This document shows positions 8,258 through 41,322 of a stretch of 64,000 nucleotides of DNA, piece by piece. The DNA is taken from contig NC_087073.1 of assembly GCF_026151205.1 (NCBI RefSeq), forward strand, positions 2,656,501 through 2,720,500, in the 5' to 3' direction. The notes below the pieces were generated by a model. It did no database searches. It was given only the letters and a program-made list of their open reading frames with translations, and was not told where the DNA came from. The position numbers were made by a program, and so were the translations under genes. The first letter of the stretch is position 1. Every line of letters begins with the position of its first letter. Source of the DNA: Bolinopsis microptera. Taxonomy: Eukaryota > Ctenophora > Tentaculata > Lobata > Bolinopsidae.

Positions 8258-9442
8258 ATGATCCCAACTGACGTGTTAAGTGATTTACTTACTCATCTGT
8301 CTCTACTTGATCTCATGGAATGTTCCGGAGTATGTCTGAGTTGGAGAGATTCTGCACTTCATGAAATATTCAGGAGAACTAACCAGTCTTTATCTGATAT
8401 GATTAGAAAACACAAGAATCTCAACAAGTCTATTCTACTGAAAACACTTTCTAAGACTAACAAGAAATTCTCCGCGAAAGCTCTCTTCCAAAAGATAAGA
8501 TTTGACTCAGCCCTTATCTCGGGAGATACATCTAAGCTTACTTTTGCAAGTGACTTCGATCTGTACCCTTCGTTGTGTATGTCAATGAGGTGGTACTCGT
8601 TCCCAATAAATTTGAAACCAAAAGATCTGACAGAGTACAGATGGTGTCTCACTACCCCTCTTTTCTCTCAAAAACAGAAAGAGAAACAGAAAGAGAAAGG
8701 TAAAAACAAACGAGACACTCCCAGACAGTTTTGTGTGTCACGTGGTTCTCGATTCCACATTCCATGGTCGGACAGGGCGGCTCCTGTAATAGTGGACAAA
8801 CTCATCTCAATTTACAACATAGGAACAACAGTTATAGCGGTGTGGAATGATTTTAGAACCGTAGCATTTATCGTACACTCTCAACCTCTATCACTGAGAT
8901 TACTGGCGGATTGCTTCCATCTCAAACTCCCTAAGAAGATAATTAGTCAGAGTGAAGGGCTGGACAGTTTCGGGATCACTGCTCAATTAACATTACGGAA
9001 CTTTAAACGTGTGTTTGTTCACGAAGTTTTCAACAATTTGTTCTACGAGGATGACAATGTTCTCCGGGGCTGGGACAAACTTGTTTTGCAGAATATATCC
9101 CTGGAGAAGGGTTTCAGTTTGCTCTGGAAGAGTGATTACTTTAAAGGCAAGATACCTGGATGCTGTATAGTTGAGTTAGTTTTAAAACACAGTAAGACTT
9201 TTACACCTGATAATTTGTGGGATGTAAGTAAGTATTCCTTGTCTCAATTATGCAAGTTAGAACCACTGCCTGATCAGTATAAAGATAAAATGCCCTTCGA
9301 TTATAGCCCGGACAGTAGTTTTGTCTTCAAAGCTAGCAACAAATTACTTTCTGTTGAGATAATTCTTTGTTTTGATGAGTTTAGGGATGAGCTTATTTTT
9401 CATGATATGAGTATTTCCATTGCTAAGTTAAAAAAACTGTAA
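8258..9442 (+). CDS. F-box protein, single exon
   Basis: An uninterrupted 394-codon frame starts with ATG. Residues 1-40 fit the F-box: MIPTDVLSDLLTHLSLLDLM, then CSGVCLSWRD, with the usual leucine spacing and the V/C-x-W element. F-box proteins recruit substrates to SCF ubiquitin ligases through SKP1. The remaining ~350 residues show no leucine-rich or WD repeats that I can recognise, so the substrate class is open; a basic patch KQKEKQKEKGKNKR lies near residue 145. Lack of introns next to intron-rich genes suggests a retrocopy or lineage-specific family member. No canonical AATAAA was seen just after the stop. Confidence 0.75.
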   Translation: MIPTDVLSDLLTHLSLLDLMECSGVCLSWRDSALHEIFRRTNQSLSDMIRKHKNLNKSILLKTLSKTNKKFSAKALFQKIRFDSALISGDTSKLTFASDFDLYPSLCMSMRWYSFPINLKPKDLTEYRWCLTTPLFSQKQKEKQKEKGKNKRDTPRQFCVSRGSRFHIPWSDRAAPVIVDKLISIYNIGTTVIAVWNDFRTVAFIVHSQPLSLRLLADCFHLKLPKKIISQSEGLDSFGITAQLTLRNFKRVFVHEVFNNLFYEDDNVLRGWDKLVLQNISLEKGFSLLWKSDYFKGKIPGCCIVELVLKHSKTFTPDNLWDVSKYSLSQLCKLEPLPDQYKDKMPFDYSPDSSFVFKASNKLLSVEIILCFDEFRDELIFHDMSISIAKLKKL

Positions 9443-9610: not shown

Positions 9611-12600
9611 ATGAGTAAAGGTAAAGCTACACGCTCCTCTACCGCCACCTCCTCCACCCCTGCCCCAGCTCCCACTATTTCTAATGACATCCTTACTGGA
9701 CGCTTCACTGAGCACGAGTGGTAATTCCTTCTTGTCATCTTCATTTTAAAACGCTATCGTATTTATTGTATTGTGTAAAGATAAGAAATTAAATGGCTGA
9801 GAAATTAATTTTAGAGAACAGTGAGCTAAAGCTGATTTCTAGATATTGTTAACTAAATATTTCTAGATATTGTTAACTAAATATTTCTAGATATTGTTTA
9901 CTAAATATTTCTAGATATTGTTAACTAAATTCAACAGAAAATAGTCTTGTGCTCGAGAACACTGCCACCAAACAGTATTTATGCCTTGTATTATAAGCTA
10001 TAACTTGTTCATTACAGGAACACCCTGACGGATGTGGAGGATGGAGAGGAACTAGTATTTGACCTGATGGAGACGGTTGTTAACGGCGTGCTGAATGTCA
10101 TTCACGAGAAACACATGGAAACAAACCTCATTCCTTTCTCTCTAGACTGGGCTGAAAATATCATGGTAAACATTACACATTTTACACATATCATGGTAAA
10201 TATTACACATTTTTAGTGACTAAAACTATTTACCCAAATAATTATTTAAAATTTAGTTTAGTAGAGATGATGCACTCCAAAATACTATGTACTTATGAAA
10301 CATTGCATTTGTTCAGGAAAAACTAATTGACTGGCAGTTCCTTACACACGACTCCGGGGAGAGTAAGAGTGAAGCTAATAACTGGCTACCGGACCAAGGT
10401 ACTTACCTCTGTAGTCTGTACTTACCTCTGTAATCTGTACTTACCTCTGTAGTCTGTACTTACCTCTGTAGTCTGTACTTACCTCTGTAGTCTGTACTTA
10501 CCTCTGTAATCTGTACTTACCTCTGTAATCTGTACTTACCTCTGTAGTCTGTACTTACCTCTGTAGTCTGTACTTACCTCTGTAGTCTGTACTTACCTCT
10601 GTAGTCTGTACTTACCTCTGTAGTCTGTACTTACCTCTGTAATCTGTACTTACCTCTGTAGTCTGTACTTACCTCTGTAGTCTTTACTTACCTCTGTAGT
10701 CTGTACATACCTCTGTAGTCTGTACTTACCTCTGTAGTCTGTACTTACCTCTGTGTTCTGTACATACCTCTGTAGTCTGTACTTACCTCTGTAGTCTGTA
10801 CTTACCTCTGTAGTCTGTACATACCTCTGTAGTCTGTACTTACCTCTGTAGTCTGTACTTACCTCTGTAGTCATTACTTACCTCTGTAGTCTGTACTTAC
10901 TTCTGTAGTCTGTACTTACCTCTGTCGTCTTAAGTCAGCATTCTTTCAAGTTTCTCAAAACATAAATTCCTTGATTAAAATTATTAGTATTTTTGTTTTT
11001 ATTCTAAATTTAAAAGCAGAATATTAACAGAAGCAGCACGTGTACCACTAGACTCGTGGGGTCGAGGTTGTGTTCCGAGTAGAATAATCGAGGAGATAAT
11101 TGAAGAGCAAGACAACACCTCAACGGTAGAACTGGTTAAACAGATGGACACTGACTCTCTGCAGCATGAGTATGTTACCAACTCTTAATACGGACCTTTA
11201 TTTTGATTATCTGTTTATTTTATTTTGTTATGTGAGCTCCTTAAAGTAACATGATACATTTTCTAATAATTATTTCATAAGCAGGAGTAGTGGAGAGGAA
11301 ACTTCAGACCGTGAGGACCTAGAGAGTATCAAGAGGAACCCCGATCTTCACAAGCTCAACCAAGTAAGCCTGCATCCTGTGAAACTTTAGTCACAGTTCC
11401 AGTATATATATATCAATATATTGAACGAACTTGCTTGTACGTGATCTGAAATCATTTTTACTTGGGAGGACTGGTGCATGTTTATTACTTATTTTAACAT
11501 GGTCACTCTCTTTTTTAGCTACGTGAACAGTTGAAGTACTACAAGATAAGTCTAGATGACATCGCAACCCTGGAAAAGATAGACAAGCCCTCAGATACAC
11601 TTCATCTTCTTTATCAAGTACTGGGAGTTATCCAGGACCAGCCTGATAAAGACTATGAGTACAGTGTGGCGGTAGCTAATCTAGAAAAAACCAAGAAGTT
11701 CATCGAGACGTTCGGACCACGCCCCTTATCAGAATCTACTATGGCTCTACTTAAACCGTGAGTTCATCATCATTATTATTATTATAAAACTAAATAACTA
11801 AATACAGCAAACACGAGAAATACATCAAGTGGTCTAGTAGTCACGCATTCTTCATACTAATCCATACTACTCTGTTATGTGCCATGTGAACCAGATTGTC
11901 AAAATCAGTCAATCTTAAAATTTTATTACTATTTTTCTTTGAAAGGTCCTTTATTAACAGATCATACAAATTGGTACGATGAGCTCCTACTCTTCCTTTA
12001 TAGTCCTTACACGTTAAACAGGCAAATCTGAATGATAGGTAGGCAGGGGTGCTTTCCCCACTCCTTAGTACGTGCCCTAACATTTTCCATCTAGCCTCCG
12101 CAATCCTCTCTGTCAGCGGTCTCACTTTACACCGTTTATAAAAGTTCTCGTTACCGATGACATTGGGCCAGAAGATCTTCAGGGTCTGTCTAAGATGTTT
12201 TCTCTGAAGGAGTCTAGATCTTTCTTAGGGGCCGCGCAACAGCTACAGTTATATAATAGGACGGATGTTACCAAGGCTTCGTATAGTCTGAGCTTTCTAT
12301 ACTCACTGATCTTAACACTGCTGTCAAGTCAGAGGTTCTTGTAGGTATAGAATGCCACGTTAGCCTTGTTGTATCTGTTGGTAATGTCCTTTTCTGAGCA
12401 TAGCTTGGAACTTCTTACAAAAACCCTATAATTCTCTCCTATTTTGTTATAATATTTTCCCCAGTTTGTTATACAGATTTTCCCCAGTTTGTTATAAAAA
12501 TGTCCCCCAGCTTGTTATATTGATGTCCCCCAGCTTGTTATAAAGATGTCCCCAGTTTGTTATGAGATTTTTCCCAGCTTGTTATAAAGATGTCCCCCAG

Positions 12601-15600
12601 CTTGTTATAAAGATGTCCCCCAGTTTGTTATAAAGATGTCCCCCAGCTTGTTATAAAGATGTCCCCTAGTTTGTTATAAAGATGTCCCAGCTTGTTATAT
12701 TGATGTCCCCCAGATTGTTGTAAAAATGTCCCCCAGCTTGTTATAAAGATGTCCCCAGCTTGTTATTAAGATGTCCCCAGCTTGTTATAAAGATGTCCCC
12801 CAGTTTGTTATAAAGATGTCCCCCAGTTTGTTATAAAGATGTCCCCCAGTTTGTTATAAAGATGTCCCCAGCTTGTTATAAAGATGTCCCTCAGTTTGTT
12901 ATAAAGATGTCCCCCAGGTACATGGATAACATAATCCTACACCCTGATCACGTGACTCAGTTAGCGAGTCCAGCAACTCGTGGTTTATCTACTTGGTTGC
13001 ACACTGCCTACACTTATCAGACTCTTTGTAACGTTCTCAACGTGGAAACTAGTATTGACTTCAGGTTACCGGACATTATTTACATTTTCTTATTATCTGT
13101 CGTTAACGTTAGTTTTATTGCTGCATTCCCACAAGTTTTCTGTAAGAATTGCTTGACGATCTGAGATTGTAAATTAGGCAAATTGCAACAGTGATATTTT
13201 TGTAATTTTCATACTTTTAATCTCCGATTCAGATAAATTATTTCGTACTCACCATTTCTAACATTGCTAATTACAATAATTACACTTGTCAGGATTCTTA
13301 AGAGCAGTATAATAGAACTAAAGAGTCTTTCTAAGCCACCTGTTTATGTGAAAGATGTCATGTGTGCAGTTATTACACTTCTTCATGGCAAGTTCATGTG
13401 AGTTTTATCTAGTAAAGATAGCAGATTTCATTGCTCAACCTTTTTATGAAGAAACGGTTCCACGGAATTCGGATTGCAATAAACTCACATTCGCGTAGTT
13501 GATTACCAAAACATCATGAAAATGTGGATTTCATCGATAATTGTGAACTTGTTTCAGAAAGGACTACACACAAGCACAGAAGGGGTTCGCAGACCAATCC
13601 AAATTGCTGGACCATTTGGACTCATTCGACTGTACGAAACTTAGTCAGAAGTTTATTGCAAAGTTTAAGAAAGAGTTCATGACTCATACCACCGCTGAAT
13701 TGAAGTGTGTCAACGTGGGGTGTAGTTTTCTCTACCAGTGGTGTGAAGATCAGGTAAAACCATTAAAATTCTTACAATCTAGTGATATTTACAATAGTAT
13801 CTACGCTTCAAATTTTAAAGCGTGAATACTTTAACATTAACAGTTGTCTTGTCATTACAACCATTTCTATTCTTATCTTCTACCTGTATCTGTTGATGCT
13901 TTAATTATTATTGTCCTCAGATTACTGATTTACAAATCCTGTTGACTTTCTTGTGTGGTTGCTTAAATCAAATAATCGCAGATATACGGCAGTGGGTCAA
14001 TAATTGTTCGACCTCCCGAGAAACCAAAACAGAGGAAAGTCAGAAGAAGGATTAAAGTGATCGAACATGAACCGGTAATGTGGGACATGAAAAAGTCAAC
14101 CATTCTCGCTGTTATAATATCCGTTATCTTAAAATAAAGTTTGCAATATCTTATGTTGATTACATTAACTGATAGTTGTCTCAGAAATATTGTACTTAGC
14201 ATTTAAATAACTGGTGTTATAGTTCCATCATTGGATGATTCATGTATAATGGAGCCGCTCCGAAATTTTATTGGGGTATGAATACTTTTTTCATTGTATA
14301 ACGATACTTATCTTTCAGGAAGAAGAAGAGATGAGTCAGATTTCCGAATTAGGCTCTGGCTCAATGAATAACATGATGCCCCACCAATCAGCGGCTATCG
14401 TTAAAGTAATATAATCTTTACTTTGTGTAACTCCATCGTTCACTATTATTGATATGTTGTCATTGCCATCATATGTTTCAGTATAAACAGTGCGACCCTA
14501 ATTTTAAATTTAATAACTTCACATTTAAACCTAACGATAGAGTCTACTGGTATTGCTAGTTTTGTTCGCCGTTGTCATGGTAACAAACGCTAATTTACAT
14601 TTAAAGTTTATATTGTCATCGTTAAAAACGCGCGCTCTGTGTATATTATGTTGCGCGCGCATTAAATGCTTCGCTTTTGCCTTATAGCACCATATCAGCC
14701 AGATTGTACTGTTATTATTATCACTGATTTAGAAAATTGAAACTAAGTTTACTTGTTTTTATAAGAACTTCTATCAGGCACAGCAAGGGAGACCCCCTGG
14801 CAAGAAAGAAGTGCAGTATGACGATAAGGGGAATGTTGTCTCTGTTCTGAAGATTAAGAAATTACCGACAAACAGGTACACTAGATTTTCCCTAGAAAAG
14901 CGTATTTTGATTTCAAGGTCAAACTAGTTGTTTAATTGCTACCAAAATGGCATTTCATTTGAATCGAATAATATTTTTCTTCTCAGGGTAAAAACTACTT
15001 ACGAGATACTCGACTCGTCAACGTTGACCAGTAAGAAGAACAAATTAAAGCCTTTGAAAGGTGCACCATCGGTAAGAATATGATATATTTGAGTAGAGTT
15101 ATCGTTTGTTTCATCCGCTGCGAGGTTGCAAATATGTATATTGATCAACAGGAGTTCTTCGTTAATTTCTTCGTTATCAAACCCTATTTTGACATCACAC
15201 AGTTTTGTTATGTTTCACGTTTTTGTTAAATCCGGATTGGAGTGTTGTTTATGAGTCGCATAGTTGCAATGTATTCTTGTGTAAATTTGTATTGATCCCG
15301 TTTGATGTGACAAGGAATTAAGAAAAATGCTCTTATCAGGAAAGGAATTTACTCAACGTTTCAATGTTACAACATCGTATTCATTATCTCAAATTATTTT
15401 TTATAATATAGTAGTGTTGAAAGTATTAAAACAGTTTTAATACTTTTTCGTTCTTTTTCTTTCAACCATTTTTATACTCTTAAAGCAATGGATGGAAAAA
15501 AATTTCTAAAAAGTGTTTCTAAAAACAACACTCTTCAGATTAAACGAGGTGGGAGTACGAGTTTTCTGTACGAAACCCAGGATCACACTCCCGTACCCCC

Positions 15601-15879
15601 GAGCTTCGTAAGTAGGGGACCATGACCTCGTACCTCCTTGCTTCTTAACCCTATTAATTAACACCATTTTCGTTTGATCCCCATTTTATCTGATATTAAT
15701 TTATTCCCGGTCTAATGAACAATAAACATGACCAATATTTACAGGTGGACGCAGTAACAGCTTCTCCCGGGGTAGTTATCAAGCAGGGCTCTAAAATTAA
15801 GCGTGGCCCAGACAGCGTTGTTCTCAGCCCGATAGAGCAGAATAACTTATCTCGTTTCCAGAATATTCTTACCTCCTAA
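9611..15879 (+). CDS. C2orf81-like protein with two dynein-MTBD-like modules
   Basis: Fourteen exons join in frame (580 residues): 9611-9720, 10018-10165, 10317-10398, 11031-11169, 11285-11363, 11519-11757, 12918-13064, 13293-13397, 13558-13753, 13982-14074, 14319-14405, 14778-14875, 14987-15071, 15745-15879. Residues about 30-130 match vertebrate C2orf81: TGRFTEHEWNTLTDVEDGEE, IPFSLDWAENIM, DWQFLTHDSGES, DSWGRGCVP. Residues about 190-312 and 317-415 each resemble the microtubule-binding tip of dynein heavy chains. The second has IIELKSLSKPP, VKDVMCAVITLL and LLDHLDSFD; the first ends LLKPYMDN, HPDHV and RGLSTWLHTAYTY. No AAA ATPase motif is present. The tail (416-580) is basic and low in complexity. 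A ciliary role is inference. Introns 1, 3 and 6 hold tandem arrays. Confidence 0.8.
9835..9930 (+). repeat. 24-bp repeat x4 in intron 1
   Basis: Four tandem copies of ATTTCTAGATATTGTTAACT plus AAAT lie inside intron 1 of the C2orf81-like gene, about 85 bases before the acceptor of exon 2. One copy has TTTACT for TTAACT. Confidence 0.9.
10158..10214 (+). repeat. 30-bp duplication spanning the exon 2 splice donor
   Basis: The last eight coding bases of exon 2 (ATATCATG) and the first 22 intron bases are repeated once directly downstream, so two ATCATG|GTAAA donors stand 30 bp apart. Use of the second donor would add ten codons without a frameshift: no stop lies between the two donors. Confidence 0.85.
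10399..10927 (+). repeat. 19-bp minisatellite starting at the exon 3 splice donor
   Basis: About 28 copies of GTACTTACCTCTGTAGTCT start exactly at the donor GT of exon 3 (exon ends at 10398). A few units have one-base changes. On the minus strand each unit contains AGAGGTAAGTAC, a near-perfect 5' splice-site consensus. Confidence 0.92.
11830..12425 (-). mobile_element. Degenerate RTE-type LINE fragment in intron 6
   Basis: On the minus strand a frame with one stop encodes the thumb and C-terminus of a LINE reverse transcriptase: EKDITNRYNKANVAFYTYKN, YEALVTSVLLYNC, HLRQTLKIFWP and EARWKMLGHVLRSGEST. This order is typical of RTE-like LINE 3' ends. The upstream catalytic part is missing and the fragment abuts the 22-bp array at 12430. 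It lies antisense in an intron of the C2orf81-like gene. Confidence 0.7.
12430..12917 (+). repeat. 22-23-bp minisatellite ending at the exon 7 acceptor
   Basis: About 21 copies of GTCCCCCAGTTTGTTATAAA plus GAT. The last unit is cut after its CCCCCAG, which serves as the 3' splice acceptor of exon 7 (first base 12918). Every unit thus carries a pyrimidine-rich CAG that could compete as an acceptor. Confidence 0.9.
14482..14559 (+). CDS. Possible alternative terminal exon of C2orf81-like gene
   Basis: Between exons 11 and 12 an acceptor (TTTCAG) is followed by 25 in-phase codons ending in TAG, with residues NFTFKPNDRVYWYC at the end. Exon 11 ends in phase 0, so splicing to this exon would give a shortened isoform without the basic tail. 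No cDNA evidence is available here. Confidence 0.35.
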   Translation, partial: YKQCDPNFKFNNFTFKPNDRVYWYC

Positions 15880-16360: not shown

Positions 16361-16765
16361 GGTGGGCGACAATTGACCCCCCGACAATTGACCCCCCGAC
16401 AATTGACCCCCCGACAATATAATTTAATACAATTGACCCTGACCCTGACCCTGACCCTGACCCTGACCCTGACCCTGACCCTGACCCTGACCCTGACCCT
16501 GACCCTGACCCTGACCCTGACCCTGACCCTGACCCTGACCCTTACCCTGACCCAGGACCCTAACCTTAACCCTGACCCAGGATCCTGACCCTAACCCGAT
16601 CAATTGACCCCAGTGTAATTACATGGGGGTCAATTTTCGGGGGGTCAATTGTCGTACTAAACCCTAGATTTCGCGACAATTGACCCCAGTGTAATTACAT
16701 AGGGGTCAATTGTCGGGGGGTAAATTGTCGGGGGGTCAATTGTCGGGGGGTCAATTGTCGCGGTA
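16361..16765. mobile_element. Inverted-repeat element with telomere-like (CCCTGA)n core
   Basis: The left side has repeated GACAATTGACCCCCC, the centre about 20 CCCTGA hexamers (16434-16549) followed by variant CCTAACCTTAACCCTGACCC, and the right side repeated GGGGGGTCAATTGTC. Thus the two arms are inverted. The left edge GGGTGGGCGACAATTGAC matches, inverted, the right edge of the array at 2304-2550 (TTAATTGTCGCGCACCC). I could not define a clean target-site duplication. Confidence 0.7.
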
Positions 16766-19250: not shown

Positions 19251-20653
19251 GCGCGAGAGGCGAGCGAGCGCCACTGCAAGCGCAAGGGCTCTGGATAGAT
19301 CACATAAATTTACATAAATGATAAAGTTTATCATTTATGTTTTTGCGCACGCAGTGCAACCCAGTTATTTTAATTTTATGTTCGGCGCGGCTGGGTTATG
19401 TAGTGCATCCCGTAATAAAATTTTAGTTTTAATTCAGGTTTCCTCATGCAAAATTTGAAAAAAATTTATCAATTGCAGCGGGGGGTGAATTGTTACACAA
19501 TTGTAGCAGTATAATGCACTAGTGCGCCACGCCGAGCACCAAACAATGTTATTTTACCTGTCACAACCAATAAGGTTGTTCACATATTACGTAATCAGCC
19601 GAGGGGAGGGGTTACCTGGCACGCCAATAGACTAGCTTGGTAAGTAGTTATCTGTGTGGTTTTCGTTATCCATGTGTGTTTTTCGTTATCCATTGAATAT
19701 CTAAATTAAAAGGGGCCGCGTCACTATTATATCATGAATAATTAGTTTATTACAACAAAGATCGTGTATCAATACATGATTATGTGAGAGCTGTAGATCA
19801 CGACATCCGGAGAACGCCATCTTGGTGCTGTTGTAGGCTCAAAAGAATTCAGGGAAGAGTACATCAAAGAAAAAGTTGAAAAATGGATAGTTGATATTGA
19901 TCAACTAGCAGATGTAGCGACGGAAGAACCACAACTGGCTTATTCGGCCTTTACTAAAGGAATATGCCACAGATGGAGATACTACATGCGTACTATACCA
20001 GACATTGGAGAGCACTTTGTCCCACTAGAGAGCAAGATCATGCATGTGCTCATTCCAGCCCTCCTCGGTCGCCCTGTCAACCAGCATGAAAGAGATATCC
20101 TTGAACTCCCTGTTCGATGTGGAGGCCTAGGTATCATCAATCCTGTCAGGATAGCATTCTCAGTGGAACTCACTAAAGATCTTGTGAGTTTGATCAACCA
20201 ACAAGACCAGGATATTACCAAGCTGGATATGGGCAAGATGAAAGAAAAGAAAGAAGAACTGAGAAAACAGAAAGATGAGTTTCTATCACAAAGGTTCAAG
20301 TTGCTTTATAATGGGTCAGATCATCTTCTTAAGAACCACTTAAACCAAGCAAGAGAGAAGGGAGCATCAACATGGCTTTCAGCATTACCTCTAAAGGACC
20401 TCAACTATGTTCTAAACAAGCAAGAGTTCCAAGACAGCATACGCCTACGCTATGGATGGAAGATCCAAGGAGTGCCCTCTAAATGTGCTTGCGGACATGC
20501 AAACAGTGTCTACCACTCCCTTGATTGTAAATTAGGTGGATACGTTTGCATGCGCCACAATGCCATTAGAGACACTGCAGCTTTCTTCCTTCAAGAAGCA
20601 AAGTGTAAGGATGTAAGGATAGAACCTGCACTCCTACCTGTCCAACCAACTAG

Positions 20654-21046
20654 TAAAGTAAAGTAAAGTAAAATTTATGACATCACATCATCACACATGT
20701 CTACAAACTATCATCGCACTGTGTGAAAAAATATATAATAAATATTTCCCCACCAACATTAATTAATTATCAAATACAATATTTAAAAACAATTTCATCA
20801 AAAACATTATCCTATTTAAAAAACTTCCCAGTGGAATAAAGATTTATAAAACGCTTCTTTGCCACATAAGGATGGAACCAAAGATAATTGTTATGTTTCT
20901 CTTTATTACTGACATAACTGGCTCCCTCAATTCTTACTAAAACTTCATTAGAAACATTCCAAAAAAAGCAATCATTTGTAATACTTTTAGAAATCATATC
21001 TATCTTATATCCTTCTAATTTAATTTTAAAACCTAACTTCATTCTC
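20654..21046 (-). mobile_element. LINE 3' end inserted antisense into the retroelement
   Basis: On the minus strand about 80 codons end in a stop at 20812 (words WFHPYVAKKRF and FINLYS), followed by 3' UTR and a tail of TTTAC pentamers (AGTAAAGTAAAG on the plus strand at the left edge). A microsatellite tail is typical of several LINE clades. I did not find a clean target-site duplication and the family is unknown. Confidence 0.55.
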
Positions 21047-26373: not shown

Positions 26374-29271
26374 TTAATCTCTCTCCAGAAACTCTCCTCT
26401 CTCGATCACAGTGCACAACTGCTCGCAGTTTGCATCTTTCTTTATTAAACAATCTGCCAACATGATGTCAGTAGGTATCCATGTTAATGACTTTAGTGTC
26501 TTGTTGGAGAGTGCTTGTTGAAGTTCTGCTAGGTCGAGTCTCAGTCTCTTTTCTTCACACTGCTTCGATGTATGAACGTGATCATGTAACTGTTTAGAAT
26601 CAGCGAAACCTTTGATTGGTATGACTTCACTCTTCGGATCTCCGTACAGTATCTCTGACAGTATTTGTCGGACATAGATTGCAGCTCCCATGGCATCTAT
26701 GCAAGCTAGAGTTTCGGCTCCAAACGCCGAGTGCACGACACGTTTTATCTTCCTAGAACTCCAGTCGATTAAGTTAGCCGTTTTTCCGTTAGTTAGAAAA
26801 ACAAGGTAACCTCTCCCACTCTGTGTCTGTCTTCCGTTCTCTGTGAACGTGTTTCCAACACTAGCATCAGTGTAGAATGTGATCGAAATGTTGTCTCTCT
26901 GCAGATCCAAGCCTTTGAAACACAGTGATTTTGGTCCTCCTGCGATCTTCTTAGTAACTTTGTTCAAATCTGGACGGGTTTGGCCACTAAGCCACAACAT
27001 TCTCCCGAGTTGTTTCTGGTACACTTTCTTTTCTTCTTCTGTCAGCTTCGACTCTGGGGGTTTCTTCTGTTCCGGTTTCTTTAACCTCCACATCACACCC
27101 TGCTTCCTGATATCGGCAGGTGGTTTCAAATACACCTCACGAGTCATTTCATCCGATTCTTCGTCTTCTATCTCCAAGTTATACTCATTCTTGTACTGAC
27201 CAGTCGATTTTCCTGCACGACTTGTCACGAGTCCTTTTGTCCAGTCTTCGGTTTCTTGGCCTCTAAATCTCACTATATCATCCTTCTTGAGATTGAGAGC
27301 TCCATTCTTCACCGGCTCTACATTGGTCCAGTCCTCTTCAATCTTCACTGGCTCTTTACTTTTCCAGTTCCCTTCAATCTTCACTGGCTCTACACTGGGC
27401 CAGTTCTTTTCAACCACGCGACTAATAGTGTTGTCTTCAGTTTCATTCAACACCTGCACAACAGGATCCTCTGTATCTCCCGATTCCTCACAGTCGCTTT
27501 CCACTGGTTCTTCTGTACCTTCAGACTCCTCACAGTTGCTCACAACTGGTTCTTCTGTTCCTTCAGATTCCTCACGGTCGCTCAATATTATCTCTCCATA
27601 AAGACGACTTCCGCTTTGTCTACGGATCCCACGTGTGACATTCCTTTGTTCCACTCCCACTTGGAGTCCTACAATCCTCCCGCTCCCGTCTGTACCACGG
27701 TTCTTTGCCTTTGTGCGGGGTTCTTTATCAACTGCAATCCCGCCAGCACGCATGCTACGAGTCTTTGTCAGCTCTTCTTTGTCATCACTTGGTTGATTCA
27801 ATTCTTCAACCCTCCCGCTCCCGTCAGTACCACGGGTCTTTACCTTTGTGCGGGGTTCTTTTTCAACTGCAATCCCGCCAGCACGCATGCTACGAGTCTT
27901 TGTCAGCTCTTCTTTGTCATCACTAGGTTGATTCAATTCTTCAACCCTCCCGCTCCCGTCAGTACCACGGGTCTTTGCCTTTGTGCGGGGTTCTTTATCA
28001 ACTGCAATCCCGCCAGCACGCATGCTACGAGTCTTTGTCAGCTCTTCTTTGTCATGACTTGGTTGATTCAATTCTTCAACCCTCCCGCTCCCGTCAGTAC
28101 CACGGGTCTTTGCCTTTGTGCGGGGTTCTTTATTAACTGCAATCCCGCCAGCACACGTGCTACGAGTCTTTGTCAGTTCTTCTTTGTCATGACTTGGTTG
28201 ATTCAATTCTTCAACCCTCCCGCTCCCGTCAGTACCACGGGTCTTTGCCTTTGTGCGGGGTTCTTTATCAACTGCAATCCCGCCAGCACGCGTGCTACGA
28301 GTCTTTGTCAGTTCTTCTTTAGTGTCCTTGTCAGTGTCTTCCTCATCTTTATCATAAGGGTCTTTTCCTCCAGCTCTCATTTTATTCACTGTCATTTCCT
28401 GATCATGTGGCGGTACAACTCTAGAATCCTCTCCTCTCCCGATTGACATCCCCATGTGTCCTGAAGCTGTGTCAAGGATTGGTTCTTCTCCGCCATGAGC
28501 ATACACTTTCTTATTTCCTACATCGATGACAAACCTGTGTTCATTCATGGTTTGTTTTGACAGCAGTAACGGAATGTCTGTGTCGACAACATGTGTTCTA
28601 ATCACTATGTTCTTACCAAACATTTTCACAGGTAAAGTTACAAGCTTTCTAGCCACAACGCTTTCACCATCTCCAAAGCGAAATGTTGCTTTACTGTTCT
28701 TTGTCTTTAACTTCCTCGCTTCTTCCCCTGTGAGTGACTCTGTGTAGACTTCTAGCCACTTTTTTCCACATACCGTTGCAGACGCACCTGTGTCTAGTAA
28801 ACCTTTGTTTACAGTTTCTCCGATGAAGTATGTATACTGTTCGTCTCTTTCAGGTAGAACTACTTCTCTCGTCATATCAGCCAGGTATGTATACCTTTGT
28901 CTTTGACCTTCTGTCTTATAAGTATTTCTTTGACCTTCAGTCTTGTAAGTATTATGAGGGCAGTTTGCTACACGATGGTTTGGATTTTTGCAAATATAAC
29001 AACCCTGGTAGTTTTGGTTGGTTTGCTTTGTTCGGTTATCATTGCCATTACCATACTTTCTGAACTTTCCTTTCCCCCTGAACCTTCCGGTATTGTAAAG
29101 AACACCCTCATCTTCACTTTCTGCAGTTTCTCCACTGGCACTGCTGCTTTGTCTACTTCTTTGATCTGTAAACATGATGCCTTGTTCTTCCTTAATAACA
29201 GTTTCTATCCGGGTAGGACTTTCAAATGGTACTTCATCTCCAAATGTCTGCTTCAACGATTGGACCATCAT
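26374..29271 (-). CDS. Copia pol-like protein lacking integrase and RT core
   Basis: A 965-codon open frame. The N-terminal part is a late gag with a zinc knuckle CYICKNPNHRVANC (C-x2-C-x4-H-x4-C, near residue 92). An aspartic protease follows with LLDTGASATVCG (near residue 157). Next come five tandem ~46-residue repeats (KEELTKTRS, AGGIAV, KEPRTKAK, GTDGSGRVEELNQPS), then acidic repeats, then the integrase-tail-like DIVRFRGQ and TSRAGKSTGQYKNEYN. Only the RT end (GRMLWLSGQTRPDLNKV) and a Copia RNase H (FYTDASVGN, ADSKQL, WIPTDIMLADCLIKK) remain. No HHCC, DDE or YVDD motif is seen. The frame is intact despite this loss. Confidence 0.88.
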   Translation of the reverse strand: MMVQSLKQTFGDEVPFESPTRIETVIKEEQGIMFTDQRSRQSSSASGETAESEDEGVLYNTGRFRGKGKFRKYGNGNDNRTKQTNQNYQGCYICKNPNHRVANCPHNTYKTEGQRNTYKTEGQRQRYTYLADMTREVVLPERDEQYTYFIGETVNKGLLDTGASATVCGKKWLEVYTESLTGEEARKLKTKNSKATFRFGDGESVVARKLVTLPVKMFGKNIVIRTHVVDTDIPLLLSKQTMNEHRFVIDVGNKKVYAHGGEEPILDTASGHMGMSIGRGEDSRVVPPHDQEMTVNKMRAGGKDPYDKDEEDTDKDTKEELTKTRSTRAGGIAVDKEPRTKAKTRGTDGSGRVEELNQPSHDKEELTKTRSTCAGGIAVNKEPRTKAKTRGTDGSGRVEELNQPSHDKEELTKTRSMRAGGIAVDKEPRTKAKTRGTDGSGRVEELNQPSDDKEELTKTRSMRAGGIAVEKEPRTKVKTRGTDGSGRVEELNQPSDDKEELTKTRSMRAGGIAVDKEPRTKAKNRGTDGSGRIVGLQVGVEQRNVTRGIRRQSGSRLYGEIILSDREESEGTEEPVVSNCEESEGTEEPVESDCEESGDTEDPVVQVLNETEDNTISRVVEKNWPSVEPVKIEGNWKSKEPVKIEEDWTNVEPVKNGALNLKKDDIVRFRGQETEDWTKGLVTSRAGKSTGQYKNEYNLEIEDEESDEMTREVYLKPPADIRKQGVMWRLKKPEQKKPPESKLTEEEKKVYQKQLGRMLWLSGQTRPDLNKVTKKIAGGPKSLCFKGLDLQRDNISITFYTDASVGNTFTENGRQTQSGRGYLVFLTNGKTANLIDWSSRKIKRVVHSAFGAETLACIDAMGAAIYVRQILSEILYGDPKSEVIPIKGFADSKQLHDHVHTSKQCEEKRLRLDLAELQQALSNKTLKSLTWIPTDIMLADCLIKKDANCEQLCTVIERGEFLERD

Positions 29272-29353
29272 TTTATAGTCTAGCTTCGTTATTGTTGCTT
29301 TAACAAGCCGTTTCTGGTCCGGGTTAAGGTTTGCTTGATTGAGAGTTTATACG

Positions 29354-30353: not shown

Positions 30354-32184
30354 CGTGTTGCTTCCGTTTACCGGAGTTTTTCTGGGTGCTAATTATCCAC
30401 TAGCTGGAAAAGGAGTAAGTGCTAGATATCCACTAGCTGGAAAATAACTAATTGCTAGATATCCACTAGCTGAAGCGGCCCGGGGGGCGGCGTGTGAGTG
30501 AGTGAGTGAGTGGGGGTGGGTTCACCAGGGCTCACCAGGGCCTGGAAATGAGACTGGTGTGTGATCTGATCCAGTCAGTATGGTACACTGTTGCCAGCTG
30601 ACTCACCAGCAACAATGCAAGTCCAAGAAGAAAGAAGGAGAGAACTGTCCGTTATCTGGGTGAGCCACCACCGACAGTGCTCCCACTTCTGTGGGTCTGA
30701 GGGTGTTGGCTCCAAGAACCAGCCGTGAGCAAACAGCGCCTGACCCCCTCTATGGTTAACTTGAGAATAACAGGACTATGCCTTTCTCCAGGCTATTCCG
30801 TTCAGTAACCAGCTGACCCAGCACCACCTCTGATGGAAGATGTGGTTCGGATTGGACTTTGAGCTAGGATTTGTCAGTTTTTCTGTAGACACTAATGCTC
30901 CCTCGAGGAAAGACATGAGCCCCGGCGAAACTGACCAAAAACGTGACAGGGATTCTCACCCTACTACTAGATGATTGTAGAGCGTCCAGTCACACTTCAA
31001 TAAAGAGTGTGGTAAAGCTAACCCGGTCCCCTGAAAAGGTGCTGGTGCTTGTTAGCTGTTAGTGTTGACTTTCAATCAATCAAGGAAGGTTGAAAAAGAG
31101 AGAGCCGGCCTAAACAGTGACACAAAAGTGCAGAACTAGTGTTAATAATTGAAGACGATCTTCTGCTGTACGATGAATTCCTGTTGCGTTGTTAGCTTGA
31201 TCCAGGGGGTTGGCGCCGTGAAGTCTGGAAAAATCGTGCGCGCTATATCTGAATTGCCAGAATAGTGGTGGCACCCTAGATTTAGACCTGTCGCAACCTT
31301 CGCGCCTTCCAGACTAGAGGATGGGAAGGGCTGTGGTACTGAATTGCCCGAATGCAATCCTTTGTTATCGGTCCGCGTATGGGAGCTGACGTGTTCCTTA
31401 AATCTGCGTTGTTCTGGCATCTTTTCTTGTACCCTGTTATATATTACCTGGGGGGAAGTTTCCTGGTGCTTGGTAGCTGTTAGTGTTAGTTTGTTAGGTC
31501 CTGTGGATAGTTTGAGCTGGCAAAACTCAGCCTTCATACTCAGTAAGTGAGTACACCACCCGTTAGTGCCAACCAGGCCACACCACGTGGAGGTTCGGAG
31601 TGGATAATAATGGCCCGATGAATGTTCTCATATAACAACTTTTATACTTGTTCTGATCAGTCACACTTGATTAGATACCAGCGTATTCACGGGTAAAGAA
31701 TGTCAGTTTACTTCCACTTTGATATTATTAGTTTAACAACAAGGTATGATCTATGGTTGCATTTATAGTCTAGAAATAATCTCCACAAATGTTTAGAGCT
31801 ATGTTTAAAATGAATTTTTCTGATTTAAATAAGAGAATTTTGCAGTTTGTTACACAAATATATGAGGAATTAATCATAATCTTTGATATATATCTAACCA
31901 TTAATTGAATCCCACTAATTTTGTCTTGTCTCAATACGGTAGTAGAAATTAGTAAATATATCGTTTTTCCACAATCTATATTATTTGTTATTTTTATAAT
32001 ATGACTATTTATTAACTGTATTAAAGCTGCATGGTACTGATAGAATCTGAGGGGGTCTAATTATTATTATTTAATTATATTTAATTTATTTATACCACTG
32101 GTAATTAAAGATTTTGTTATTTGAATTTGGAAAGTTTGTGTATTTTTATTTTATTAATCAGTTATTTATCCAGGAAAGTTTATC

Positions 32185-33324
32185 ATGTTAACACGGAGTA
32201 AAAGATCCTCAACAGCTGCTGATAAAGAAAAGAGTAACCAAAATTTAATTCCAATCAAAAAGGAAATAAAAACTGAACAGGAGGAGGTGACTGGAATATC
32301 ACATGGTTTTATTTGTCCGAAATGTGAAGCTCACTTCCTTTATGATGAGTTCTTTGTGGAACATATCAGAGAACATCATGGTGAAACAATCAATGATATG
32401 TCTACTAGAAATGTTCTGTTCAGTTCTTTACGATCATCAGTCAGATTGGGCAAAGAAAATACTTCTCCTGTTGGGAAAGTTTTTAAATGTGACGATTGTT
32501 CTTATACCTGTACTGAGAACAGTGATCTTGTGAAACATTTACGTATTCACACGAGAGAGAAACCTTACAAGTGTAAGGAATGTTCATATTATAGTGCTCA
32601 GAAAGGTGATCTCAAGAAACATATGAGGACTCACACGGGAGAGAAACCCTACAAGTGTAATGAATGTTCATATTCTAGTGCTCAGAAATGTTCGCTCACA
32701 GCGCATATAAGGACTCACACCGGAGAGAAACCCTACAAGTGTAAGGAATGTTCATATTGTAGTGCTCAGAAAGGTGATCTCAAGAGACATATGAGGACTC
32801 ACACGGGAGAGAAACCCTACAAGTGTAATGAATGTTCATATACTTCCTCTGTTAAATCAAATCTTATTACACACCAACGTACTCACATGGGAGAGAAACC
32901 ATACAAGTGCAAGGAATGTTCATATTGTAGTGCTCAGAAAAGTGATGTCAAGAAACATATGAGGACTCACACGGGAGAGAAACCCTACAAGTGTAACCAA
33001 TGTTCATTTTGTAGTGCTCGAAAAGGTGATCTCACATTACATATTAGGACACACACGGGAGAGAAACCCTACAAGTGTAATGAATGTTCATATACTTGCT
33101 CTGTTAAATCAAATCTTATTATACACCAACGTACTCACACGGGAGAGAAACCCTACAAGTGTAAGGAATGTTCATATTCTTGTGCTCAGAAAGGTCATCT
33201 CTCATTACATATAAGGACTCACACTGGAGAGAAACCCTTCAAGTGTAAGGAATGTTCATATACTTGCTCTGATAAATCAAGTCTTGTCAGACATCAACGT
33301 ACTCACACGGGAGAGAAACTCTAA
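32185..33324 (+). CDS. C2H2 zinc-finger protein, array unit A (intact)
   Basis: 379 residues. The N-terminus MLTRSKRSS is followed by two consensus SUMO-attachment motifs (IKKE at 24-27, IKTE at 28-31) and a lone divergent finger CPKC...HIREHH (44-65). Then come ten tandem C2H2 fingers joined by TGEKPYKC linkers, ending THTGEKL. Such proteins bind DNA through finger contact residues in the nucleus. The fingers fall into two alternating types, [14 protein letters not shown] and [14 protein letters not shown], so target specificity is probably a two-letter pattern. Finger one has the linker TREKPYKC. The N-terminus is not a KRAB, BTB or SCAN domain. Start chosen because all units share it. Confidence 0.9.
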   Translation: MLTRSKRSSTAADKEKSNQNLIPIKKEIKTEQEEVTGISHGFICPKCEAHFLYDEFFVEHIREHHGETINDMSTRNVLFSSLRSSVRLGKENTSPVGKVFKCDDCSYTCTENSDLVKHLRIHTREKPYKCKECSYYSAQKGDLKKHMRTHTGEKPYKCNECSYSSAQKCSLTAHIRTHTGEKPYKCKECSYCSAQKGDLKRHMRTHTGEKPYKCNECSYTSSVKSNLITHQRTHMGEKPYKCKECSYCSAQKSDVKKHMRTHTGEKPYKCNQCSFCSARKGDLTLHIRTHTGEKPYKCNECSYTCSVKSNLIIHQRTHTGEKPYKCKECSYSCAQKGHLSLHIRTHTGEKPFKCKECSYTCSDKSSLVRHQRTHTGEKL

Positions 33325-33936
33325 ATTTGCCAGGAATGTTCTCATATAACAACTTTTATACTTGTTCTGATCAGTCACACTTTATTAGATATCAGCGTAT
33401 TCACGGGTAAAGAATGTCAGTTTACTTCCACTTTTATATTATTAGTTGAACAACAACGAGGTATGATCTATGGTTGCATTTAAAGTTTAGAAATAATCTC
33501 CACAAATGTTTAGAGCTATGTTTCAAATGAATTTTTCTGATTTTTAAATGAAAGAATTTTGCAGTTTGTTGCACAAATAAGTAAGGAATTAAAACCATAA
33601 TCTTTGATATATTATTAGATATATCTAACCATTAATTGAATCCCACTGATTTTGTCTTGTCTCAATAGTAGAAATTAGTAAATGTATCGTTTTTCCACAA
33701 TCTATATTATTTGTTATTTTTATAATATGACTATGATATGACATTTATTAACTGCATTATAGCTGCATGGTACTGATATAATATAGATATCTGAGGGCCG
33801 AGGGGGTCTAATTATTATAATTTAATAATATTCCATTTATTTATACCCACTGGTAATTAAAGATTTGGTTATTTGAATTTGGAAAGTTTGTCTATTTTTA
33901 TTTTATTAATCAGTTACTAATGCAGGAAAGTTTGCC

Positions 33937-34740
33937 ATATTAACACGGAGTAAAAGATCCACAACAGTTGCTGATAAAGAAAGAAGTAACAGAAATTTAA
34001 TTTCGATCAAAAAGGAAATAAAAACTGAACAGGAGGAGGTGACTAGAATATCACATGGTTTCATTTGTCCGAAATGTGAAGCTCACTTCCTCTATGATGA
34101 GTTCTTTGTGGAACATATCAGAGAACATCATGATGAAAAAATCAATGATATGTCTACTAGAAATGTCTTGTTAAATTCTTTACGATCATCAGACAGGTTG
34201 GGCAAAGAAAGTACTTCTCCTGTTGAGAGTGATTTTAAATGTGACGATTGTTCTTATACCTGTACTGAGAACAGTAATCTTGTGAAACATTTACGTATTC
34301 ACACGGGAGAGAAATCCTACGAGTGCCAGGAATGTTCATATTGTAGTGCTCAGAAAGGTGATCTCAAGAAACATATGAGGACTCACACCGGAGAGAAACC
34401 CTACAAGTGTAAGGAATGTTCATATTGTAGTGCTCAGAAAGGTGATCTCAAGAAACATATGAGGACTCACACGGGAGAGAAACCCTACAAGTGTAAGGAA
34501 TGTTCATATACTTGCTCTGTTAAATCAAGTCTTATAATACACCAACATACTCACACAGGAGAGAAACCCAACAAGTGCAAGGAATGTTCATATTGTAGTG
34601 CTCAGAAATGTGATCTCAATAAACATATGAGGACTCACACGGGAGAGAAACCCTACAAGTGTAAGGAATGTTCATATACTTGCTCTGTTAAATCACGTCT
34701 TGTCAGACATCAACGTACTCACACGGGAGAGAAACTCTAA
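33937..34740 (+). pseudogene. C2H2 zinc-finger gene, array unit B (start lost)
   Basis: The unit is open from the position of the usual start to the TAA at 34738-34740, but the ATG is ATA at 33937-33939. The next in-frame ATG lies only after the divergent CPKC finger. It has six tandem fingers instead of ten. Two adjacent [14 protein letters not shown] fingers are identical, a sign of recent finger duplication. It could still be translated from an upstream exon, which I cannot see, so the pseudogene call is moderate. Confidence 0.65.
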
Positions 34741-35349
34741 ATTTGCCAGGAATGTTCTTATACAACTCTTATAGTTATACTTGTTCTGATCAGTCACACT
34801 TTATTAGATACCAGCGTATTCACGGGTAAAGAATGTCAGTTTACTTCCACTTTTATATTATTAGTTCAACAACGAGGTATGATCAATGATTGTATTTATT
34901 GTTTAGAAATAATCTCCACCAATGTTTAGAGCTATGTTTGACATGATTTTTCTGATTTTTAAATGAAAGAATTTTGCAGTTTGTTGCACAAATAAGTAAG
35001 GAATTAATCATAATCTTTGATATATTATTAGATATATCTAACCATTAATTGAATCCCACTGATTTTGTCTTGTCTCAATAGTAGAAATTAGTAAATGTAT
35101 CGTTGTTTCCACAATCTATTAATATTATTTGTTATTTTTGTAATATGACTATGATATGACATTTTTTAACTGCATTAAAGCTGCATGGTACTGATAGAAA
35201 AGAGATATCTGAGGGGGTCTAATTATTATAATTTAATAATAAATTCCATTTATTTATACCCACTGGTAATTAAAGATTTTGTTATTTGAATTTGGAAAGT
35301 TTGTGTATTTTTATTTTATTAATCAGTTACTAATGCAGGAAAGTTTGCC

Positions 35350-36489
35350 ATGTTAACACGGAGTAAAACATCCACAACAGTTGCTGATAAAGAAAGAAGT
35401 AACAGAAATTTAATTTCGATCAAAAAGGAAATAAAAACTGAACAGGAGGAGGTGACTAGAATATCACATGGTTTCATTTGTCCGAAATGTGAAGCTCACT
35501 TCCTCTATGATGAGTTCTTTGTGGAACATATCAGAGAACATCATGATGAAAAAATCAATGATATGTCTACTAGAAATGTCTTGTTAAATTCTTTACGATC
35601 ATCAGACAGGTTGGGCAAAGAAAGTACTTCTCCTGTTGAGAGTGATTTTAAATGTGACGATTGTTCTTATACCTGTACTGAGAACAGTAATCTTGTGAAA
35701 CATTTACGTATTCACACGGGAGAGAAATCCTACGAGTGCCAGGAATGTTCATATTGTAGTGCTCAGAAAGGTGATCTCAAGAAACATATGAGGACTCACA
35801 CGGGAGAGAAATCCTACAAGTGTAAGGAATGTTCATATACTTGCTCTGTTAAATCAAGTCTTATAATACACCAACGTACTCACACAGGAGAAAAACCCTA
35901 CAAGTGCAAGGAATGTTCATATTGTAGTGCTCAGAAATGTGATCTCATTAAACATATGAGGACTCACACGGGAGAGAAACCCTACGAGTGTAAGGAATGT
36001 TCATATACTTTCTCTGTTAAATCAAGGCTTATCAGACACCAACGTACTCACACGGGAGAGAAACCCTACAAGTGTAACCGATGTTCATATTGTAGTGCTC
36101 GGAAAGGTGATCTCAAGAATCATATGAAGACTCACACGGGAGAGAGACCCTACAAGTGTAACCGATGTTCATTTTGTAGTGCTCGGAAAGGTGATCTCAT
36201 TAAACATATGAGGACTCACACGGGAGAGAAACCCTACAAGTGTAAGGAATGTTCATATACTTGCTCTGATAAATCACGTCTTGTCAGACACCACCGAACT
36301 CACACGGGAGAGAAACCCTACAAGTGTAAGGAATGTTCATATTCTTGTGCTCAGAAAGGTCATCTCTCATTACATATAAGGACTCACACTGGAGAGAAAC
36401 CCTTCAAGTGTAAGGAATGTTCATATACTTGCTCTGATAAATCAAGTCTTGTCAGACATCAACGTACTCACGCGGGAGAGAAACTCTAA
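35350..36489 (+). CDS. C2H2 zinc-finger protein, array unit C (intact)
   Basis: 379 residues with the shared N-terminus (MLTRSKTST, SUMO motifs, CPKC finger) and ten tandem fingers. The order of finger types differs from unit A: fingers 6 and 7 are both CSARKGDL types. The first ~210 bp and the 3' third are almost the same as unit B and unit A respectively, suggesting gene conversion or unequal crossing over within the array. One linker reads TGERPYKC. Confidence 0.9.
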   Translation: MLTRSKTSTTVADKERSNRNLISIKKEIKTEQEEVTRISHGFICPKCEAHFLYDEFFVEHIREHHDEKINDMSTRNVLLNSLRSSDRLGKESTSPVESDFKCDDCSYTCTENSNLVKHLRIHTGEKSYECQECSYCSAQKGDLKKHMRTHTGEKSYKCKECSYTCSVKSSLIIHQRTHTGEKPYKCKECSYCSAQKCDLIKHMRTHTGEKPYECKECSYTFSVKSRLIRHQRTHTGEKPYKCNRCSYCSARKGDLKNHMKTHTGERPYKCNRCSFCSARKGDLIKHMRTHTGEKPYKCKECSYTCSDKSRLVRHHRTHTGEKPYKCKECSYSCAQKGHLSLHIRTHTGEKPFKCKECSYTCSDKSSLVRHQRTHAGEKL

Positions 36490-37102
36490 ATTTGCCAGGA
36501 ATGTTCTCATATAACAACTTTTATACTTGTTCTGATCAGTCACACTTTATTAGATATCAGCGTATTCACGGGTAAAGAATGTCAGTTTACTTCCACTTTT
36601 ATATTATTAGTCACTGAACAACAACGCGGTATGATCTATGGTTGCATTTAAAGTTTAGAAATAATCTCCACAAATGTTTAGAGCTATGTTTGAAATGAAT
36701 TTTTCTGATTTTTAAATGAAAGAATTTTGCAGTTTGTTGCACAAATAAGTAAGGAATTAATCATAATCTTTGATATATTATTAGATATATCTAACCATTA
36801 ATTGAATCCCACTGATTTTGTCTTGTCTCAATAGTAGAAATTAGTAAATGTATCGTTTTTCCACAATCTATATTATTTGTTATTTTTATAATATGACTAT
36901 GATATGACATTTATTAACTGCATTATAGCTGCATGGTACTGATATAATATAGATATCTGAGGGCCGAGGGGGTCTAATTATTATAATTTAATAATATTCC
37001 ATTTATTTATACCCACTGGTAATTAAAGATTTGGTTATTTGAATTTGGAAAGTTTGTCTATTTTTATTTTATTAATAAGTTATTAATGCAGGAAAGTTTG
37101 TC

Positions 37103-38157
<1,055 letters not shown>

Positions 38158-38419
38158 ATTTGCCAGGAATGTTTTTATATAACAACTTTTATACTTGTTC
38201 TGATCAGTCACACTTTATTAGATATCAGCGTATTCACGGGTAAAGAATGTCAGTTAACTTCCACTTTTATATTATTAGTTCAACAACGAGTTATGATGTA
38301 TGGTTGCATTTAAAGTTTAGAAATAATCTCCACAAATGTTTAGAGCTATTTTTAAATGAAAGAATTTTGCAGTCTGTTGCACAAATAAGTAAGGAATTAA
38401 TCATAATCTTTGATATATT

Positions 38420-40998
38420 GGGGGGGGGGGGGTGTCACGTCCGTCTATGTCCGCTTGTCTCATAGAATCCAAAAAGGACAGGACATAGGCGGACATAGGC
38501 GGACATAGGCGGACATAGACGGACATAGGCGGACATAGGCGGACATAGACGGACATAGGCGGACATTAATGGACACCTAAATTGCTAAATAAAATGTTCA
38601 ATTTTTGCTGTTATAGGGGGATCATGTTTTTTGTCCGTTCAATACCCTATATTTTCAAAACGGACAAAAAATAGAGCGGCAAAAACGGACAAAAATGGAA
38701 ATAACATTTAGATGCTTCCTCCTCCTACTCTTCCTCCTCCTCCCCCTGGGTCTTCCTGATCTTCCTCAGTCCTCTTCCTCCTCCCCTCCCCATTCCTCCT
38801 CCTCCTCCTGAGTCCTCCTCAGTCCTCCTCCTTCTCAGTCATCGTCAGTTCCTTCTGAGTCCTCCTCCTGAGTCCTCCTCCTCCTCCCTCTCAGTCATCC
38901 TCCTCAGTCATCCTCCTCAGCCATCCTCCCCAGCCATCCTCCCCAGCCATCCTCCTCAGTACTCCTCAGTCCTCCTCCTTCTCAGTCATCCTCCTCAGTA
39001 CTCCTCAGTCCTCCTCCTTCTCAGTCATCGTCAGTTCCTTCTGAGTCCTCCTCCCCAGTCCTCTTCCTCCTCCCCTCCTCAGTTCTCCTCCTCCTGGGTC
39101 CTCCTCCTCCTCTTCATCCTCCTCCTCTTCCTCCTCAGTCCTCAGTCCTCCTCCTCATCCTTCTCCTCAGTCCTCCATCCTCCTCCTCAGTCCTCCCCCA
39201 GTCCCCCTCCTCCTCCTCCTATTCAGTCCTCCTCCTCCTCCTCCTCCTTCTCAGTCCTCCTCAGTCCTGATCCTCCTCCTCCTCCTCCTCCTCTTCCCTT
39301 TCAGTCATCCTCCTCAGCCATCCTCCTCAGTCCTCCTCCTCCTGGGTCCTCCTCCTCCTCTTCATCGTCCTCTTCCTCCTCGGTCCTCAGTCCTCCTCCT
39401 CCTGGGTCCTCCTCCTCATCCTTCTCATCAGTCCTCCTCCTCCCCAGTCCTCTCCCAGTCCCCCTCCTTCTCCTCAGTCCTCCTCCTCCTGGGTCCTCCT
39501 CCTCCTCTTCATCCTCCTCCTCTTCCTCCTCAGTCCTCAGTCCTCCTCCTCATCCTTCTCCTCAGTCCTCCATCCTCCTCCTCAGTCCTCCCCCAGTCCC
39601 CCTCCTCCTCCTCCTATTCAGTCCTCCTCCTCCTCCTCCTCCTTCTCAGTCCTCCTCAGTCCTGATCCTCCTCCTCCTCCTCCTCCTCTTCCCTTTCAGT
39701 CATCCTCCTCAGCCATCCTCCTCAGTCCTCCTCCTCCTGGGTCCTCCTCCTCCTCTTCATCGTCCTCTTCCTCCTCGGTCCTCAGTCCTCCTCCTCCTGG
39801 GTCCTCCTCCTCATCCTTCTCATCAGTCCTCCTCCTCCCCAGTCCTCTCCCAGTCCCCCTCCTTCTCCTCCTCCTATTCAGTCCTCCTCCTCCTCCTCCT
39901 CAGTTCTCCTCAGTCATCCTCCTCAGTCATCCTCCTCAGCCATCCTCCCCAGCCATCCTCCTCAGCCATCCTCCTCAGTACTCCTCAGTCCTCCTCCTTC
40001 TCAGTCATCGTCAGTTCCTTCTGAGTCCTCCTCCTGAGTCCTCCTCCTCCTCCCTCTCAGTCATCCTCCTCAGTCATCCTCCTCAGCCATCCTCCCCAGC
40101 CATCCTCCCCAGCCATCCTCCTCAGTACTCCTCAGTCCTCCTCCTTCTCAGTCATCCTCCTCAGTACTCCTCAGTCCTCCTCCTTCTCAGTCATCGTCAG
40201 TTCCTTCTGAGTCCTCCTCCCCAGTCCTCTTCCTCCTCCCCTCCTCAGTTCTCCTCCTCCTGGGTCCTCCTCCTCCTCTTCATCCTCATCAGTCCTCAAC
40301 AGTTCTCCTCCTCCCCAGTCCTCCTCCTCCTCCTGGGGCCTTTTCCTGGGTCCTCCTCCTCCTGGGTCCTCCTCCTCCTGGGTCCTCCTTCTCCTCCTCA
40401 GTCCTTCTCCTCCTCCTCCTCAGTCCTCTTCCTCCTCTTCCTCCTCCTCCTCCCTCTCAGTCATCCTCCTCAGCCATCCTCCTCAGCCATCCTCCTGAGT
40501 CCTCCTCCTTCTCAGTCCTCCTCAGTCCTCCTCCTGAGTCCTCCTCCTCCTGAGTCATCCTCCTCAGTTCTCCTCCTCCTCCTCCTAGGTCCTCCTTCTG
40601 GGTCCTCCTCCTCCTCCTCCTGGGTCTTCCTGATCCTTCTCCTCCCTCTCAGTCATCCTCCTCAGTCATCCTCCTCAGTCATCCTCCTCAGCCATCCTCC
40701 TCAGCCATCCTTCTCAGTACTCTTCAGTACTCTTCAGTCCTCAAAATGTTTGTCCGCTAATGTCCACCAATGTCCGCTAATGTCCACCAATGTCCATCCA
40801 AGTCCGCCAATGTCCGTCCGGGTCCCCCAATGTCCGTCCGAGTCCGCCAATGTCCGTCCGAGTCCGCCAATGTCCGTCCAAGTCCGCCAATGTCCGTCCG
40901 TGTCCGCCAATGTCCCAAAAAACACGTCCGTTGTCTCATAGAATCCAAAAAGGACAGGACATAGGCGGACATAGACGGACATGACACCCCCCCCCCCC
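38420..40998. mobile_element. 2.6-kb satellite foldback element with G-tract ends
   Basis: Flanked by TATATT at 38414-38419 and 40999-41004; other units have it once. It begins with a run of 13 G then TGTCACGTCCGTCTATGTCC, and ends with the inverse GGACATAGACGGACATGACA and a C run. Inside the ends are GGACATAGGC decamers (about 38480-38570) and GTCCGCCAAT decamers (about 40750-40915). The body (about 38710-40740) is a pyrimidine-rich TCCTCCTCAGTCC satellite in which blocks of about 400 bp and 1.2 kb recur. Both ends share CATAGAATCCAAAAAGGACA. No protein is encoded. Confidence 0.88.
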
Positions 40999-41322
40999 TA
41001 TATTATTAGATATATCTAACCATTAATTGAATCCCACTGATTTTGTCTTGTCTCAATAGTAGAAATTAGTAAATGTATCGTTTTTCCACAATCTATATTA
41101 TTTGTTATTTTTATAATATGACTATGATATGACATTTATTAACTGCATTAAAGCTGCATGGTACTGATAGAAAAGAGATATCTGAGGGGGTCTAATTATT
41201 ATAATTTAATAATAAATTCCATTTATTTATACCCACTGGTAATTAAAGATTTGGTTATTTAAATTTGGAAAGTTTGTCTATTTTTATTTTATTAATCAGT
41301 TACTAATGCAGGAAAGTTTGTC

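Follow-up and report, generated by a model that had tools for sequence, protein, structure and literature searches.

A ctenophore C2orf81-like protein with two tandem homologues of the dynein microtubule-binding domain and no detected motor

The microtubule-binding domain (MTBD) of the dynein heavy chain, the tip of the stalk described by Pfam family PF12777, is known as part of a motor. C2orf81, in turn, is a ciliary protein whose central-pair location and uncharacterised status were reported only in 2025-2026 (PMC12979858; PMC13096173). Human C2orf81 is restricted to motile cilia of fallopian-tube epithelium and termed largely uncharacterised (PMC13096173), while C2ORF81 was among the candidates of a screen combining WDR47 proximity and knockout, and the GFP-tagged mouse protein was found by super-resolution imaging on central-pair microtubules in a SPEF1-like manner (PMC12979858). 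By term search, C2orf81 is not named in the main text of a paper on the structure of the mouse sperm central apparatus (PMC12297659). JHY, which reinforces central pairs, is reported to be absent from ctenophores (PMC12979858). Here, we describe a C2orf81-like gene of the ctenophore Bolinopsis microptera, located at 9611..15879 (+) of a window of 64,000 nucleotides (the whole stretch of DNA analysed: RefSeq assembly GCF_026151205.1, contig NC_087073.1, positions 2,656,501 to 2,720,500, forward strand), which encodes two consecutive modules that are, on sequence grounds, homologous to the dynein MTBD.

We found that module 1 (11519..13064, +; residues 187-315) is encoded by exons 6-7 (11519-11757, 12918-13064) and module 2 (13293..13753, +; residues 315-415) by exons 8-9 (13293-13397, 13558-13753). 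The initial annotation had placed both in exons 5-9, and its outer limits are indeed the start of exon 5 (11285) and the end of exon 9 (13753), but the modules are confined to exons 6-9, exon 5 (11285..11363, +; residues 160-186) being an acidic linker of low conservation (mean pairwise identity 0.38). The peptides quoted in that annotation for both modules are encoded in frame. Compared by hhalign with 11 MTBDs of the same genome, module 1 scored 60.9 and module 2 scored 112.2, far over the best of 40 column-shuffled controls per module (17.8 and 16.6, respectively); the genome contains 16 PF12777 matches, of which the five partial ones (L015-L019) were left out of this profile and of the tree described below. 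In profile searches of the PDB, dyneins account for 34 of the 40 rows of module 1, the top 31 being exclusively dynein, and for the best 60 of 67 rows of module 2, recognised either from the name or from entry plus length. Both modules are also predicted to adopt the MTBD fold, as its helical arrangement is present in their models. On this basis, the tandem of dynein-MTBD-like modules proposed earlier stands.

The protein differs from a dynein heavy chain, with which both modules share sequence profile and predicted fold, in having two MTBDs in tandem, no AAA ring found and no long coiled-coil stalk matched. No AAA family exceeded the Pfam cut-off in the window protein or in its nine homologues (P0001-P0009), a KaiC-type ATPase row in P0007 reaching 14 bits against a cut-off of 26.6. 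Across the six contiguous frames of the window, where an intron-split motif would escape, a single Walker-A-like pattern occurs, at 19837 and outside the gene, so that the computation upholds the earlier statement that no AAA ATPase motifs surround the modules. Nor were the long coiled coils of the dynein stalk found, since the best PF12777 matches are confined to profile positions 99-216 of 344; in the predicted model, module 1 is flanked by helices of 14 and 23 residues.

The assignment to C2orf81 is likewise computationally well founded, in agreement with the initial annotation. DUF4639 (PF15479) matches residues 7-188 (E 5.4e-19; 69 bits against a cut-off of 27), and catshark C2orf81 (P0010) reaches 110.6 bits against the profile of the N-terminal region, which is encoded by exons 1-4 (9611..11169, +; residues 1-160). 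The two proteins also have in common the last of the two C-terminal parts (12.7 bits, a score equalled by none of 1000 shuffles). In contrast, the catshark protein shows no match to the linker (0.1 bits; 197/1000 shuffles as high) or to the first C-terminal part (-0.2 bits; 571/1000), and contains neither module 1 (no score) nor module 2 (0.3 bits; 45/1000). Judged from this comparison of sequences, catshark C2orf81 is a collinear relative in which the modules are missing. The initial annotation had asked for a check whether vertebrate C2orf81 keeps a diverged copy; in this sole vertebrate member examined, none was found. This speaks against the idea that the modules could explain C2orf81 function, as the catshark protein has neither of them while mouse C2ORF81 sits on central-pair microtubules (PMC12979858); the modules thus appear to be an addition to central-pair placement rather than its basis. 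No solved structure of C2orf81 was found among 47 rows retrieved, of which 46 were dynein and the remaining one unrelated. A profile search of the genome with PF15479 and PF15261 (JHY) gave no match, and likewise none for its controls, so that it carries no information.

Two observations weigh against the homology of the modules to the MTBD. In the window protein, PF12777 reaches 22 bits, below the 24-bit cut-off (in a 580-residue model lacking exon 15539-15607, which was also used for the homologue search and the homologue alignment), and against pieces of the cytoplasmic MTBDs of mouse and yeast module 1 obtains no more than 9.9 and 5.9 bits, which is about what the highest-scoring of 672 shuffled sequences attained (9.5 bits), as small helical bundles resembling an MTBD by chance or convergence might do. 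Yet, six of the nine homologues exceed the PF12777 cut-off, two axonemal MTBDs give 38.8 and 35.9 bits with module 1, and the evidence from hhalign, PDB profiles and predicted folds, together with its controls, makes such a coincidence highly improbable; chance resemblance was ruled out by the shuffled-sequence controls. Still more remote is a chimeric gene model, in which exons 1-4 would be part of C2orf81 and a distinct gene carrying the MTBDs would supply the remaining exons. It draws on the large tandem arrays within introns and on the presence of near-identical copies 56 kb apart, a place where mis-assembly is possible. However, the nine homologues (44-94% identity in the protein search) carry both parts in the same order, each in one open reading frame (ORF) of 564-617 residues, with roughly 43 residues missing at the start of P0002; this answers the doubt, raised by the initial annotation itself, that exons 1-4 and 5-14 could be two genes, and computationally supports one transcript unit. 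The longest contigs bearing these homologues measure 1.8-2.4 kb and, being intronless at such size, look like transcripts. In addition, the C-terminal exons match catshark C2orf81 too, and a second copy of the gene has the same 15 exons. The chimeric model was rejected on the nine homologues and this second genomic copy. The homologue set, obtained from protein searches, comprises the nine homologues and the catshark protein, on which single protein the vertebrate comparison is based; when the N-terminal region served as the query, 3 of 153 candidates were obtained, none of them new.

The second copy is near-identical to the first along the full length of the gene and is located 56 kb downstream, past the window end (C2:2720501-2730500, L003); two copies in total were found in the genome. 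Their exons differ at 8 of 1,812 bases (seven silent codons and one replacement). In ten of the 14 introns, 23 of 2,355 aligned bases differ (about 1%), with 64 gap columns in addition. The pair may represent either a tandem duplication or an uncollapsed haplotype.

Microtubule contact was assessed at positions 3299, 3342, 3378 and 3382 of DYNC1H1, which we take to be its contact positions (the letters at these numbers agreed with the sequence; the alignment joins distant sequences). Most of these residues are altered in module 1 and some of them in module 2. All ten module 1 sequences are acidic (charge -2 to -7) and have no basic residue at the equivalents of 3299 or 3342, while the acidic 3378 is kept in 10/10 and the basic 3382 in 3/10. 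Module 2 is basic overall in 10/10 sequences, with a basic residue at 3299 in seven, at 3342 in two and at 3382 in two of the ten; thus, only 3299 is mostly kept, the other contact positions being kept in two to five sequences.

We consider it somewhat better than an even chance that this ctenophore C2orf81 relative, with its two consecutive MTBDs between conserved ends, anchors to the central pair via module 2. By analogy with the mouse protein, the conserved N- and C-terminal regions would place it on central-pair microtubules, where module 2 would add a direct lattice contact resembling the dynein foot. Lacking both an AAA ring and a long stalk through which affinity could be switched, such a foot would act as a static anchor or spacer rather than as a stepping one. 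Module 1, whose fold is kept and whose contact residues are not, is more likely to pack onto module 2 or to bind a partner. The serious competitor, to which we give a substantial though lesser chance, is that the modules derive from the MTBD but have lost microtubule binding, and serve as a helical scaffold or as a docking site for another axonemal protein. The acidic charge of module 1 and its lack of basic contact positions, of which module 2 retains a part, speak for it, as does the lower conservation of the modules (mean pairwise identity 0.56 and 0.45) compared with the N-terminal region (0.68). However, module 2 is basic in all ten sequences and nearest to the cytoplasmic dynein MTBDs, though with tree support that is not decisive, and axonemal dyneins also vary at some contact positions. 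Overall, we favour microtubule binding over a scaffold role by only a moderate margin.

As for the origin of the modules, their derivation by reuse of the dynein tip, as initially annotated, is likely, while the tree is compatible with more than one number and direction of captures. This tree comprised 33 MTBDs (11 of the same genome, four from the PDB and nine of each module). Each module forms one well-supported group, so both would be older than the divergence of the nine homologues. Module 2 falls with cytoplasmic dynein (support 93/89, below the threshold for starring), and module 1 has a very long branch. That one module recently gave rise to the other by internal duplication was considered and found to be unsupported, as their mutual scores are at shuffle level and the profile comparison gives E 0.088; yet, a topology uniting both modules in a single clade is not rejected (p-AU 0.392). 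Exons 6-9 (11519-13753) contain 687 nt of exonic sequence with phase 0 at both ends, which makes them a cassette able to enter or leave the gene with the frame intact, and they may actually have done so. It is conceivable, though improbable, that a ctenophore central-pair protein gained this 687-nt, phase 0 to 0 cassette, with module 2 taken from a cytoplasmic-type dynein, and became a motorless tandem staple of central-pair microtubules in comb-plate cilia, doing the lattice-stabilising work of cnidarian and bilaterian JHY. That the modules compensate for the missing JHY is only a proposal.

The complete gene consists of 15 exons with GT-AG introns and a consistent frame and encodes 604 residues; the 14 exons counted previously did not include 15539-15607. 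Exons 1-4 occupy 9611-9720, 10018-10165, 10317-10398 and 11031-11169 (+), and exons 10-15 (13982..15879, +) occupy 13982-14074, 14319-14405, 14778-14875, 14987-15071, 15539-15607 and 15745-15879, encoding the C-terminal region (residues 416-603) with a conserved motif around GNVVSV. Intron 3 has at its start (10399-10930) a tandem array of about 28 copies of a 19-bp unit bearing the 5' splice site, and intron 6 has at its end (12444-12917) an array of about 21 copies of a 23-bp unit bearing the CCCCAG 3' splice site; in both introns the array unit is the splice site itself. Directly upstream of the gene, at 8258-9439, lies a single-exon ORF with an F-box-like domain (PF12937, 24.5 bits, cut-off 24.3), and at 16367-16760 CGACAATTGACCCCC arrays and their reverse complement surround a TGACCC array in an inverted-repeat layout. 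Further along the window we found five similar consecutive C2H2 zinc-finger ORFs (32158-44129, +), the first of which was covered by the domain scan, a reverse-transcriptase ORF (52295-54223, -; PF00078, 34.7 bits), and ORFs at 26377-29346 (-) and 19797-20663 (+) that look mobile-element-like by eye and have no Pfam match above cut-off. A scan of the window against Rfam yielded no hit.

In the open-licence PubMed Central literature on C2orf81, DUF4639 and motorless MTBDs, we found no description of a motorless tandem MTBD in C2orf81, in line with the initial annotation, which knew of none. PF12777 and PF15479 co-occur in the precomputed domain annotation of six of the nine homologues; thus, as far as we searched, the pairing has been visible to machines and not written about. 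Chain L of PDB 9ya2, a Toxoplasma intraconoidal microtubule structure, is a possible precedent for an MTBD-like fold without a motor; its aligned residues are numbered 1207-1457, apparently low for a dynein heavy chain, and this chain is absent among the rows listed in the PDB profile searches of modules 1 and 2. If the anchoring role of module 2 is true, the dynein foot would be separable from its motor and reusable as a fixed anchor. In one animal group, C2orf81 would become accessible to concrete biochemical work, the small size of the modules making direct microtubule-binding tests feasible, and the protein would offer a test case for how ctenophores, reported to be JHY-less (PMC12979858), keep their central pairs together.
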